47,872 bases of DNA from Sphaerochaetaceae bacterium (GTDB taxonomy: Bacteria > Spirochaetota > Spirochaetia > Sphaerochaetales > Sphaerochaetaceae), in contig JAQQAR010000037.1 of NCBI GenBank assembly GCA_028532765.1, positions 1 to 47,872 on the forward strand, in the 5' to 3' direction. The position numbers were made by a program, and so were the translations under genes. How positions within the stretch are numbered: position 1 is the stretch's first letter; each line of letters starts with the position of its first letter. Shown piece by piece: positions 15,784 to 47,872 of the stretch. The notes under the pieces were generated by a model. That model saw nothing but the letters and a program-made list of their open reading frames with translations, was not told the DNA's origin and made no database searches.

Positions 15784-16378
15784 GATTGGTTCAGCTGAGG
15801 ATATCTCAGCACAGAAACGATTGGAGGATAAGCTGGCATTCTTGGCAACACAGGATATCCTTACTGGCCTTCCCAATCGAAACTTCTTCCATGACCAAGC
15901 GAAGTTAACCGTCAGTCAAGCCCGTTACTCAGATGATTTGGTTGCCTTTCTGGTCATCGATATCGATCATTTCACGACCATCAATGAGAACCACGGATTC
16001 AAAATGGGTGACAAGGTTCTCCAGATTGTAGCCTCCCGGGTAAAAGCACAGCTCAGAAAAAGCGATCTGGTAAGCCGCCTTGGAAGCGATAAGTTCATTG
16101 TACTGCTCAATGGTATCCGTATGAGAAGAGACGCCCTGGCCGTTGCAAAGAAGATCCAGACTGCCTTTGCCACTCCTTTTGAATTACCAAATACCACCAT
16201 TGAAGTATCGGCAAGCTTTGGTATCAGCCTCTATCCAGAGCATGGTGATGACATCAACACGCTTATCAAACGAGCAGAGATTGCAACCTATGCAGTCAAG
16301 GACCGGGAACGTGGAGGATATATGATCTATTCAGATATACTCTACAACGATGAAAACTCTTCCAAAAATGAGGTCTAG
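15782..16378 (+). pseudogene. 5'-truncated PAS/GGDEF protein fragment
   Basis: 198 codons encoding the end of a PAS-associated linker (GSAEDISAQKRLEDKLAFLA) and a complete GGDEF-domain stretch (QDILTGLPNRNFFHDQ to the YAVKDRERGGYMIY end). The active-site loop reads G101-S-D-K-F105 instead of GGDEF or GGEEF, so cyclase activity is doubtful. The PAS sensor that such linkers follow is missing: an in-frame TGA lies at 15749 and homology starts abruptly at about 15782. No ribosome site precedes the ATG. It is most likely the surviving 3' part of a larger gene. Its stop is immediately followed by the lipoprotein start. Confidence 0.65.
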
Positions 16379-30639: not shown

Positions 30640-32639
30640 ATGACCTCTCCAAACCTGTGGAAATTGCAGATAATCTTTTTTGGGTTGGTTCAGAGAACAC
30701 CCACAAGTACCTGCAATGCAACCCATATCTCTATATCAGTGGAGAGACAGGGATCTTGTTTGATCCTGGATCAGCCTTGGATGGAGAGATTGTCATCGAG
30801 AAAGTGAAAAGCATTATCCCCATCTCACATCTAGAGGCAATCGTCTGTAGTCACCAGGATCCTGATCTTTGTATGGCCATCCCGCTCTTTGAACAAGCAG
30901 GATTCAAAGGCGTCATTTGTTGCCATGAGAGAGCGACACTCTTAATCCAATACTATGGACTCAAGAGCCCTTTCTACCAAGTAAATTACCATCAGTTCTC
31001 CTATACCATGAAAAGCGGAACAACGATTGGTTTTCTCTTCACTCCCTACCTTCACTTTCCCGGGGCAATCATGAGCTACCTTCCCAAGCAGAAGGTCTTG
31101 GTCAGTGGGGACCTGTTCGGTTCTGTCACTGCAGATTGGCATCTATATGCCGATGAGGACTATCTGGATGGGATGATTGCCTTCCATGAAGTCTATATGC
31201 CAAGCAATGATATTCTTGCCTCAGCGATGAATCTTCTTGACAGCTATCAGCTGGAAATGATCTGTCCGCAGCATGGCTCAATTCTTCGTGGAACCTTGAT
31301 TAATGAGGCTATCAGTACACTCAAGACGACACCGTGTGGGCTCTTCCTGGAAACACCGGTAAAAAATCTGAACGAAGAAGGAGGAATCAAGGGCTTGCTC
31401 GAACAGATTCTCACCCGCCTGATCACCATGCATGGAGCAGCGGAAATCAAGGCGATGTTTAAGAAAAGCCCATTCAACATCGATACTAAACTCCGTAAGA
31501 TAACAAAAAGCACAATCGGAGAAGACTCAATATGGGATGCTTTTTTTGATTTCCTTAGCGAGCAGAGAGCAGGAACACAATACCTTGCTTCCATCTCCAG
31601 TATGGTTGAACTACTATGTAAGGGATATGAATTACCAATTCCCAAATCACTGGCATCAGTACTGTTTCATTCTCAATCAGAATCTGAGGAGAACAGAAGA
31701 CAAGTCCAGGTGCTCCAAACGCAACTCAGGGAATTCGAAGAGAACTTGCATCGCGATCCGATTACAAAGCTTCACAACCAGGAATTCTATCTGGCATGGC
31801 TGGAGAAGGAGCTCTCTGGAATATCTAATCAGAAGAAGACCATCACCTCATGTGTAATGAATATCGACAATCTGGACCGGATCAATCTCGATTTCGGAAG
31901 TACCGAAGGAGACAAGACACTTCGTCTGCTTGCAGACTTGGCAACCGGATATGTTGAACCTCAGGTACAGGTCTGTCGTATTGGGGGGAGTGCCTTTGCA
32001 CTCCTGTATGCATCCCTTGGGAAGGAGGAAGTCATTACACGGGCCACACAGTTAAGAAATGCCATCCATGAAGATGATCGATTCATCGTCCCCATCAATG
32101 TCTCCATGGGTATTTTTCACTCTTCTGAAATCCCCGAGACATTGCACCAAGATCCTGAGCAAATGGCACTTCTGGTTAATCAGGTTACCTTGTTCAGGGT
32201 CCGCCTGGCAAAGAAACAGGGAGGGGGAATCGTCTCTACATCAACGAGTGTTGCAAGCAGCAGCGCAATATTCACCATTCTTCTTGTTGATAAGCCAGGT
32301 TTTTCGCGTGACCTTATCAAGCAGACCCTGGAGAAAAACTCATTTAGAGTCCTCACCGCGGCGAACGGATTGGAAGCGAAGGAACAAGTACTCTCAGAAC
32401 CAGTCGACCTTATTCTCTCTGAATTGCTCATTCCAAAACTCAGTGCTCTTACATTGAGAAAGCAACTACTGGACACTCCCTCTGCAGGAAAGATTCCCTT
32501 TATCCTTATGTCAGTGAACAAGCAAGAGCAGACTGTAAAGAGAGCTCATAGTTTGGGTATCATGCACTTTTTTTCCCGCCCTGTTCCACTGTATGAGCTC
32601 GTTGGCTTGATCGATATACTCGCAAAAAAGGGGGCTTGA
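30636..32639 (+). CDS. Di-iron metallo-beta-lactamase / GGDEF / receiver fusion
   Basis: A 667-residue cytoplasmic three-domain protein. Residues 1-230 are a metallo-beta-lactamase fold with flavodiiron-type ligands: His73, Asp75 and Asp77 in SHQDPD, His140, Asp159 in SGDLFG, and His213 in PQHGS. This resembles oxygen-binding di-iron (ODP) sensors known from spirochaetes. A GGDEF-like domain (about 370-520) follows with the loop G450-G-S-A-F454, so it probably does not make c-di-GMP. The receiver-like C-terminus (546-667) has Ser595 in DLILSELL where the phospho-acceptor Asp belongs. It is coupled to the preceding gene by a 4-bp overlap and sits one base before the next. Confidence 0.8.
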   Translation: MNDLSKPVEIADNLFWVGSENTHKYLQCNPYLYISGETGILFDPGSALDGEIVIEKVKSIIPISHLEAIVCSHQDPDLCMAIPLFEQAGFKGVICCHERATLLIQYYGLKSPFYQVNYHQFSYTMKSGTTIGFLFTPYLHFPGAIMSYLPKQKVLVSGDLFGSVTADWHLYADEDYLDGMIAFHEVYMPSNDILASAMNLLDSYQLEMICPQHGSILRGTLINEAISTLKTTPCGLFLETPVKNLNEEGGIKGLLEQILTRLITMHGAAEIKAMFKKSPFNIDTKLRKITKSTIGEDSIWDAFFDFLSEQRAGTQYLASISSMVELLCKGYELPIPKSLASVLFHSQSESEENRRQVQVLQTQLREFEENLHRDPITKLHNQEFYLAWLEKELSGISNQKKTITSCVMNIDNLDRINLDFGSTEGDKTLRLLADLATGYVEPQVQVCRIGGSAFALLYASLGKEEVITRATQLRNAIHEDDRFIVPINVSMGIFHSSEIPETLHQDPEQMALLVNQVTLFRVRLAKKQGGGIVSTSTSVASSSAIFTILLVDKPGFSRDLIKQTLEKNSFRVLTAANGLEAKEQVLSEPVDLILSELLIPKLSALTLRKQLLDTPSAGKIPFILMSVNKQEQTVKRAHSLGIMHFFSRPVPLYELVGLIDILAKKGA

Positions 32640-46194: not shown

Positions 46195-46223
46195 ATGACA
46201 AACCTCCCATACCCTGTTATGCT
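46195..46223 (+). promoter_or_regulatory. Candidate promoter of B12-binding/GGDEF genes
   Basis: ATGACA (46195-46200) and TATGCT (46218-46223) are separated by exactly 17 bases. The start would fall near 46230, about 30 bases before the ATG of the cobalamin-binding protein. Confidence 0.45.
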
Positions 46224-46261
46224 ATTGGTATATCACGCACTTTTTGGTAGGGAGGTCTTGC

Positions 46262-47332
46262 ATGAGTTTATTACTACCGGACATAGACCCAAGACGTATC
46301 AGTCTCGCGCAAAAGATCTTTGACCAACAGTTCGAACAAGACCCCAGACTTGAGCGAGAGATGGATGATCGACGGAAACGTCTCATGTTCCAGGACATAC
46401 TCTACAATTTCGACTTTCTTTCAACTGCGGTACAGATCGGAGATGAGAAACTCTTCACGAACTATGCAGTCTGGCTTTATGAGTTGCTCTGCAACCTGAT
46501 GAAAGATATTGACCGTGATCGCATCAAGGACCAGATGGTGCATCACTACGAAATTCTGAAGACATTCAGTGACAAGCTCTTTGAAGAAGAGACAATGGTT
46601 GCTTCAGCAAAAACCATCCTCGATGCAGCTATTGATGCAACTGAAGATGCAATGGACAACTACCAGGTATCAGAAGCCTTTCTCGAAGGTCCCCATCTTC
46701 CCATCCGAAGAGCATTTCTTAACGCACTTCTTAGGAGTGAAACCCAGAAGGCGATACAAATCATTGAAGATGCAAGAAAAGACGGACTAAGTCTGGAAGA
46801 GCTCTATGAAGATGTTATACGTCTCAGCATGCAGGAAGTCGGAGAACTCTGGTACCAGAACAAGATAACAGTGGACAAGGAACATTACGCTACCTCCACC
46901 ACCCAGATGATTCTTGCTCGCTTCTATCCATACATTTTCAACCAGAAGCCAGTAGATAAGAAAATCCTTACCTGTTGCATTGGCAGCGAGCTTCATGAGA
47001 TGGGAGGAAGAATGGTAGCTGACCTTTTTGAATATCATGGATGGGAAAGCGTCTACCTTGGGGCAGCGGTCCCTATTCCTTCTTTAGTAAGCGCAGTAGC
47101 GGAGCATCAACCCAATCTTGTTGCACTTTCGGTCACCATGCCCCAACACCTCCAAACCTGCTATCTTGCGGTAAAGACATTGAAAGAGAAATACCCTTCC
47201 CTGCTCGTTGCAGTTGGGGGGAGAGCATTCAAAACGAGTGGAGGCATCTATAAGACATGGCCCATCGATGTGTATACAGACCTTGCAACAGAGTTGGTCC
47301 TTTGGGCTGATAAGGTGGCTGCCAAATCATGA
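46262..47332 (+). CDS. Cobalamin-binding photoreceptor-like protein
   Basis: A 356-residue soluble protein. Residues 1-130 are helical with no recognised family and no DNA-binding helix-turn-helix. Residues about 140-225 match the four-helix cap domain that sits over B12, with Trp197-x9-Glu207-His208, the signature of CarH-type light sensors. The C-terminal Rossmann-like B12 domain reads Glu243-Leu-His245-Glu-Met-Gly248, then 41 residues, S290-V-T292, then 26 residues and Gly-Gly. This is base-off/His-on cobalamin spacing with Glu in place of the usual first Asp. ATG 46262 follows GGGAGG. Its stop overlaps the next GGDEF gene by 4 bp. Confidence 0.85.
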   Translation: MSLLLPDIDPRRISLAQKIFDQQFEQDPRLEREMDDRRKRLMFQDILYNFDFLSTAVQIGDEKLFTNYAVWLYELLCNLMKDIDRDRIKDQMVHHYEILKTFSDKLFEEETMVASAKTILDAAIDATEDAMDNYQVSEAFLEGPHLPIRRAFLNALLRSETQKAIQIIEDARKDGLSLEELYEDVIRLSMQEVGELWYQNKITVDKEHYATSTTQMILARFYPYIFNQKPVDKKILTCCIGSELHEMGGRMVADLFEYHGWESVYLGAAVPIPSLVSAVAEHQPNLVALSVTMPQHLQTCYLAVKTLKEKYPSLLVAVGGRAFKTSGGIYKTWPIDVYTDLATELVLWADKVAAKS

Positions 47333-47872
47333 ACCACTCATTCTTCGTCCGCACTGATACAAAAAAAGTAGTGCAAGAGACCTACTGGTCGAAACCCATA
47401 TCATTGGCCATGCCCTTCAAGACCACCTTGGAGTCTCTGTTTCAACAAGATGATAAAGATCGTTTCAACACGATCTTCTCCAACGCATTAGACCATGAGA
47501 CTGAAGTTTTTTGTGCTCATATACCTATTATTGAGGAACAGGAGCAACTCTGTTTCTTCATTGCCAGTGCTAAAAAATTTGTGTATGTATTGGCATTGGA
47601 TTATCTTGCTAATCTTCCTTCCTCTATCCAGGAAGCACACAACCAGGTCATCTTTGCCATGATCAAGCAATTTGCTGTGTTGCGCGGTGAACAACTGATG
47701 CACGCCTCGGAAGAAGTGTACAACCACTTTGAAGAGATCCAAAAACTCAACAATGATTTGGTCAATACACAACGCCAGTTGCAACGGGCAAACCGAAAAT
47801 TGGAACAGCTGAACCTGGAGCTGAATAACCGCCTTGTCAAGGATGCATTGACCGGCTTGATAAGTCGCTATC
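47329..47872 (+). CDS. Diguanylate cyclase-like protein (3' end outside window)
   Basis: 181 codons visible; the frame runs off the window. The first 110 residues may form a degenerate PAS-like sensor (a region around EQLCFFIASAKKFVYVLALD). Residues about 120-170 form a coiled coil (NNDLVNTQRQLQRANRKLEQ). The beginning of a GGDEF domain follows (KDALTGLISRY). The catalytic loop is not in view, so activity cannot be judged. ATG 47329 overlaps the stop of the cobalamin-binding protein, so the two are almost certainly co-translated partners. Confidence 0.85.
   Translation, partial: MNHSFFVRTDTKKVVQETYWSKPISLAMPFKTTLESLFQQDDKDRFNTIFSNALDHETEVFCAHIPIIEEQEQLCFFIASAKKFVYVLALDYLANLPSSIQEAHNQVIFAMIKQFAVLRGEQLMHASEEVYNHFEEIQKLNNDLVNTQRQLQRANRKLEQLNLELNNRLVKDALTGLISRY

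Follow-up and report, generated by a model that had tools for sequence, protein, structure and literature searches.

The closest described relatives of the sensor reported here are photocobilins (PMC10979010). SasPcob of Saccharothrix syringae (PDB 8j2w/8j2x) joins an adenosylcobalamin (AdoCbl) module and a bilin-type globin in one stand-alone protein, in which Asp270 interacts with rings A-C of biliverdin and Trp296 touches both ring D and the corrin (PMC10979010). AbDPcob of an Acidimicrobiaceae bacterium (PDB 8j2y) has the same pairing of inputs in a single fused chain with an N-terminal diguanylate cyclase (DGC). Dark AdoCbl lowers and light raises the activity of this fused DGC, by >10-fold, and a swap of the upper ligand without light failed to activate it; SasPcob without bilin behaves with the opposite sign (PMC10979010). 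Isolated photocobilins also act in trans in vitro on a DGC that is not fused to them, altering its activity in dependence on light and bilin, although such action was shown only with non-cognate or dissected proteins (PMC10979010). A photocobilin group with a C-terminal AdoCbl domain was noted in the same work, and a reversed domain order alone is therefore known. Also related are the CarH/LitR regulators (TtCarH, CtMerR), among which TtCarH needed oxygen for effective monomerisation, and the photoglobins or bilin-biosynthesis-associated globins, which are non-heme globins with a CXQD motif, coupled to a B12-binding protein (PMC10151467).

The window, i.e. the whole stretch of 47,872 nucleotides that we analysed, is contig C37 of a 3.16-Mb assembly of 93 contigs from a Sphaerochaetaceae bacterium. 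On its forward strand it harbours a gene for a 356-residue, photocobilin-type sensor with the globin ahead of the B12 domain (46262..47332). The ATG start codon lies downstream of a ribosome-binding site read as gggaggt (46250..46256, + strand), and GGAGGT is kept at this position in most Sphaerochaeta loci. Further upstream, the sequence ATGACA-N17-TATGCT (46195..46223, + strand) is a likely promoter of the two-gene unit. This promoter-like stretch is conserved in the Sphaerochaeta loci L035, L036 and L043 despite differing upstream genes, and the sensor and cyclase genes thus probably form a transcription unit of their own. The relatives at 97% and 90% at the protein level are from Sphaerochaeta, and the order of the genes that surround the pair is likewise that of Sphaerochaeta.

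The stop codon of the sensor gene and the start codon of its partner share 4 bp (ATGA, 47329-47332), in agreement with the original prediction. The partner DGC (47329..47872, + strand) is cut by the end of the window after 181 residues; its complete form has 344 residues and an AGDEF motif. Contig C22 of the same assembly, probably a strain variant, overlaps the end of C37 by 458 bp at 95% identity and completes the GGDEF frame, with an intact MRIAGDEF. The join is confirmed by a single-contig complete genome of the same species, which has the identical gene order and a 344-residue DGC in one frame. The GGDEF loop, whose degeneracy had been named beforehand as an argument against the predicted signalling pair, is therefore intact in Sphaerochaeta (contig C22, the complete genome and the relatives). 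The identity of only 95% over the 458-bp overlap also suggests that the assembly contains mixed strains.

Pfam analyses of the sensor identified B12-binding_2 at residues 149-220 (E 2.8e-13) and B12-binding at residues 234-324 (E 1.1e-15). Together with the fold match, and with the model in the case of the cap, they delineate a four-helix cap at residues 146-226, with G194xxW197 and E207H208 (46697..46939, + strand), and a Rossmann B12-binding domain at residues 231-356, with the lower-ligand motif E243xH245xxG, S290xT292 and GG319-320 (46952..47329, + strand). All motifs are at the predicted spacing, namely W197-x9-E207-H208, then E243-x-H245-x-x-G248 followed by 41 residues to S290-x-T292 and by 26 to G319-G320, and the motif residues, W, EH and ExH included, are invariant in 23 homologues. 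A phmmer search of the PDB ranked SasPcob at the top (E 1.9e-19); CtMerR, AbDPcob and CarH followed, CarH with an E-value of about 1e-6. The fold comparison of the full-length sensor covered residues 143-356, and the model of the B12 module (residues 143-353) superimposes on SasPcob with a Z of 26.4 and an rmsd of 1.9 over 207 aligned residues. W197 aligns with Trp61 of SasPcob, E207-H208 with Glu71-His72 and H245 with His108; the SasPcob numbering was checked in that the HMMER chain index plus 6 correctly yields His108 and Trp61. The geometry of the AdoCbl pocket should thus be conserved between the two proteins, and we infer that the sensor binds AdoCbl.

The published photoreceptor signature (SignatureFinder) comprises GxxW, EH, GxxH and GxxxP (PMC11796333). 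Three of these four elements are present in the sensor; GxxH strictly fails, with S242-x-x-H245 (SxxH) at this site, and its Gly is present in the L037, L038, Azospirillum and Skermanella relatives. A strict search with this signature would thus miss the clade. The residue that follows W197 is Tyr198, at the position of CarH His132, the upper ligand after light. This position is occupied by His in most relatives of the sensor, as in CarH, and by Tyr in AbDPcob.

No Pfam family was detected for the first 140 residues, and the original prediction had described them as a novel helical domain. They are helical in the model but not novel, and form a globin of the photoglobin/phycobiliprotein type (residues 9-133; 46286..46660, + strand), as indicated by a VIA-align fold match and a profile search. 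The N-terminus, which was modelled separately (pLDDT 88), has as its best VIA-align match the globin of SasPcob (residues 235-345; Z 13.5, rmsd 2.5, 111 aligned residues), and among the remaining 49 of the first 50 entries almost all are bilin-binding proteins, namely phycobiliproteins, smURFP and relatives of these. When a profile of 14 N-termini was compared with the PDB, it matched the globin of AbDPcob (E 0.0025) and ApcF (0.015), and more weakly allophycocyanin beta (0.25), SasPcob (0.33) and CpcA (0.69). The designed repeat protein 7rdr, in the first row and the sole further match of that search, was discarded as an artefact of eight tiny repeats. In the phmmer search, residues 29-77 gave a weak second stretch against the globin of SasPcob. 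Foldseek is weak by itself (best E 0.042) and a Z near 13 can be reached by chance among helical proteins, so that the case for a globin lies in the agreement between profile, fold and residues. As to the latter, D45 (46394..46396, + strand) aligns with Asp270 of SasPcob and with the Asp of the phycobiliprotein CxRD motif, and W71 (46472..46474, + strand) aligns with SasPcob Trp296; both are invariant in 14 aligned homologues.

The CXQD motif of photoglobins reads M42-F-Q44-D45 in the sensor, with Q and D retained and Cys replaced by Met42. Met stands at this position in the anaerobe clade to which the sensor belongs, whereas the Azospirillum and Skermanella relatives have kept the Cys, as CVED. 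Heme oxygenase (PF01126) was found in none of 13 genomes, and HutW gave no match above the cut-off; IsdG and HugZ types were outside that search, and bilin might be taken up. With Met42 at the site of the photoglobin Cys and heme oxygenase missing from the 13 genomes searched, binding of a bilin by the globin of the sensor is doubtful. The clade raises the question of what a bilin-type globin holds in an anaerobe seemingly unable to make biliverdin.

Based on sequence and modelling, the sensor appears not to be a CarH protein minus its helix-turn-helix but a photocobilin that stands alone and has its domains in the reverse order. With SasPcob it shares the pocket W, EH and ExH residues, as well as the Asp and Trp of the globin; it differs in that the globin comes first, a cognate GGDEF partner is encoded alongside and no known bilin-making gene was found in its genome. 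AbDPcob resembles it in its combination of inputs with a DGC output and in the Tyr after the pocket Trp. Nevertheless, AbDPcob is a single chain whereas sensor and cyclase are separate proteins here, and the bilin Asp that the sensor retains is a His in the globin of AbDPcob. CarH/LitR proteins have in common with it the AdoCbl-binding module, W-x9-EH and the lower-ligand His, but the sensor has a globin and no MerR DNA-binding domain, and its output is a separate enzyme. Photoglobins differ from it by the Cys that is Met in its clade. The sensor would thus represent a photocobilin variant that is split from its output, has lost the Cys and occurs in an organism without recognized heme oxygenase. 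The prediction of a CarH-type sensor is borne out for the pocket, by sequence and fold, and its lack of a MerR helix-turn-helix agrees with the Pfam result; however, the nearest relatives belong to the photocobilin class.

The partner protein is predicted to begin with an input module, which a coiled-coil-like linker connects to a diguanylate cyclase domain of the GGDEF type. In the close relative L004, this domain matches PF00990 with an E-value of 1.6e-30 and its AGDEF motif is intact. The D205, N213 and D222 columns, expected around the GGDEF active site, are all invariant, and no canonical RxxD inhibition site (I-site) was found in the partner DGC. The conserved linker FEEIQxLNNxLVNTxRxLxxANxKLxxLN (47710..47826, + strand) is common to the histidine-kinase and EAL partners described below. 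A profile of the first 166 residues of the partner matched the histidine kinase of the spirochaete L038 (E 4e-9) and the EAL protein of C. asparagiforme (E 8.6e-9), and no other GGDEF protein of the window or of the loci. The match of the Azospirillum kinases is confined to the linker, and that of the Ilyobacter partner is weak (E 0.0016). The window contains two further GGDEF domains, at 15845-16312 and 31749-32129.

The distribution of the pair was investigated with 12 relatives collected in one scan of bacterial genomes, from Sphaerochaeta, other spirochaetes, Alkalibacter, Clostridia, Erysipelotrichaceae, Peloplasma, Bacilli, Mollicutes and Tenericutes MAGs, and C. asparagiforme; outside Spirochaetota, the sampling consists of that scan and a plasmid collection. 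An intact GGDEF protein is encoded directly downstream on the same strand in 11 of these 12 relatives, usually with a 4-bp overlap or a few bases apart. In the twelfth, C. asparagiforme, a degenerate GGDEF domain precedes an EAL domain that is read in a different frame. This partner (L012, 6029-7960), in which ARADTF replaces the GGDEF motif and the EAL domain looks complete, might reflect a pseudogene, a sequencing error or a true frameshift. The pair was found at all Sphaerochaetaceae loci with a close homologue of the sensor, and on a plasmid of Ilyobacter polytropus the sensor gene (WP_013388897) overlaps that of a GGDEF protein (WP_013388898). A histidine kinase takes the place of the GGDEF protein in Azospirillum and in L038, a distantly related spirochaete. 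On the Azospirillum plasmids (L053, 3938-6282; L050, 3974-6268), the kinase lies beside the globin-B12 protein with the CVED motif and has an LNNEL linker as in the cyclase partner. There are exceptions, since Skermanella has a sensor without an adjacent partner, and the neighbour in G237 is a divergent GGDEF protein without the partner input module. A conserved linkage, which the original prediction had named as a check, is supported.

The trees of sensors and partners are nearly congruent, with a Spearman correlation of 0.91 between pairwise distances. The genome of the window has about 31 GGDEF matches, and it is therefore unlikely that sensor and GGDEF genes came to be adjacent by chance in so many lineages. 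With motifs invariant in 23 homologues, conservation across several bacterial phyla and nearly congruent trees, the pairing is not due to chance.

We consider it probable that the two proteins form a unit in which a stand-alone photocobilin-type sensor controls its dedicated GGDEF partner by contact, through light-read AdoCbl. In the dark, a dimer of the sensor would hold AdoCbl base-off/His-on through H245, and W197 and E207-H208 would lie beneath the adenosyl group. Green light would break the Co-C bond and the adenosyl group would depart, with a shift of the cap helix that carries E207-H208. The altered sensor would grip the input module of the partner differently, and the linker might then allow the GGDEF domains to pair and produce c-di-GMP. 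For this locus, we infer AdoCbl binding, light as the stimulus, physical contact and the sign of regulation alike. Light sensing is likely. Protein contact, as originally proposed, is the most likely route of the signal, because the sensor and the linker are constant ahead of exchanged outputs (GGDEF, EAL, histidine kinase) and photocobilins act on a DGC in trans in vitro (PMC10979010). The light-on sign is borrowed from AbDPcob, and with the opposite behaviour of SasPcob without bilin it is uncertain for this pair. Points that speak against this reading are the SxxH element, Tyr198 at the position of CarH His132, the Skermanella sensor that lacks an adjacent partner and the negative adenosyltransferase result for Alkalibacter. 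As the two genes are naturally linked, contact-based control becomes testable with matched proteins.

The main competing explanation is that the two proteins form the same unit but respond to the supply of cobalamin or to the redox/oxygen state (AdoCbl as opposed to aquo/Co(II) cobalamin), with a structural, non-chromophore globin as in RsbR; it is possible but unlikely. Sphaerochaeta and Ilyobacter, both among the members, are strict anaerobes. We know of no lit habitat for the sensor clade, which counts against light as the stimulus. The loss of the photoglobin Cys to Met42 and the results for heme oxygenase (13 genomes) and HutW (none above cut-off) also favour a cobalamin or redox signal. 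Conversely, the W, EH and ExH residues are invariant and match those of proven photoreceptors, D45 and W71 are retained despite a seemingly absent bilin supply, the swap of the upper ligand left the DGC of AbDPcob unactivated without light (PMC10979010), and the sensor co-occurs with the carotenoid gene product CrtB in the family.

The latter observation relates to the crtI/crtB genes, located 6.3 kb from the sensor gene on the minus strand (39983-37682). The sensor is present in 14 of 139 Sphaerochaetaceae genomes, and CrtB was found in 13 of these 14 compared with 20 of the 139 overall, as raw counts that ignore shared ancestry. Within the genus, the equally raw counts, again with shared ancestry ignored, are 11/11 genomes with the sensor vs 14/26 overall. 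Ten genomes within this genus, that of the window among them, encode CrtB 3-18 kb from the pair, shared ancestry likewise being ignored. The carotenoid link put forward in the original prediction is therefore present, but it holds only within the genus and the family. As regards the cofactor, a BtuR-type adenosyltransferase is present in all 10 Sphaerochaetaceae genomes tested, and Alkalibacter (G287) yielded no match to either of two adenosyltransferase families searched. As regards c-di-GMP, the genome of the window has ten EAL matches and none to PilZ; a search of eight Sphaerochaeta genomes detected no PilZ receptor.

The unit might also be an anaerobe photocobilin whose globin, with Asp and Trp kept but the Cys lost, uses a linear tetrapyrrole formed without oxygen, or no tetrapyrrole at all, and which reports light plus oxygen to c-di-GMP through a plug-in partner with exchangeable output. 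This is a tentative proposal that we regard as rather improbable. Oxygen may be required if the photolysis of AdoCbl is to last, as suggested by the monomerisation of TtCarH, and the sensor would then report light and oxygen together.

That the sensor is a corrinoid carrier for a methyltransferase, with the GGDEF gene as an unrelated neighbour, is largely refuted. The two kinds of proteins have the fold of the Rossmann module in common, and there are matches to NCBIfam models of methyltransferase corrinoid proteins, but all score far below the curated cut-offs (at best 47.7 bits vs 215.3). Furthermore, no methyltransferase gene was recognized near the pair in the window, on contig C22 or at the Sphaerochaetaceae loci, and the globin domain and the pairing with signalling proteins across phyla do not fit a carrier. 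A CarH/LitR-like regulator acting at the DNA level on the carotenoid operon, through an unrecognized DNA-binding N-terminus, would account for the crtI/crtB genes 6 kb away and for their co-occurrence with the sensor in the family, yet it is very improbable given that the N-terminus matches a globin by fold and profile, Pfam detects no helix-turn-helix, the NCBIfam CarH model scores 57 bits, far from its cut-off (400), and other neighbours flank the pair elsewhere.

Two other genes were observed around related loci. In Peloplasma, a second, stand-alone B12-binding protein without a globin is encoded beside ABC transporter genes (L010, 9383-10030). In several Sphaerochaeta species, the stop codon of the cyclase gene overlaps by 4 bp a gene for a 264-residue MerR-type regulator (L004, 7099-7893; L003, 5268-6062), which is absent in others.
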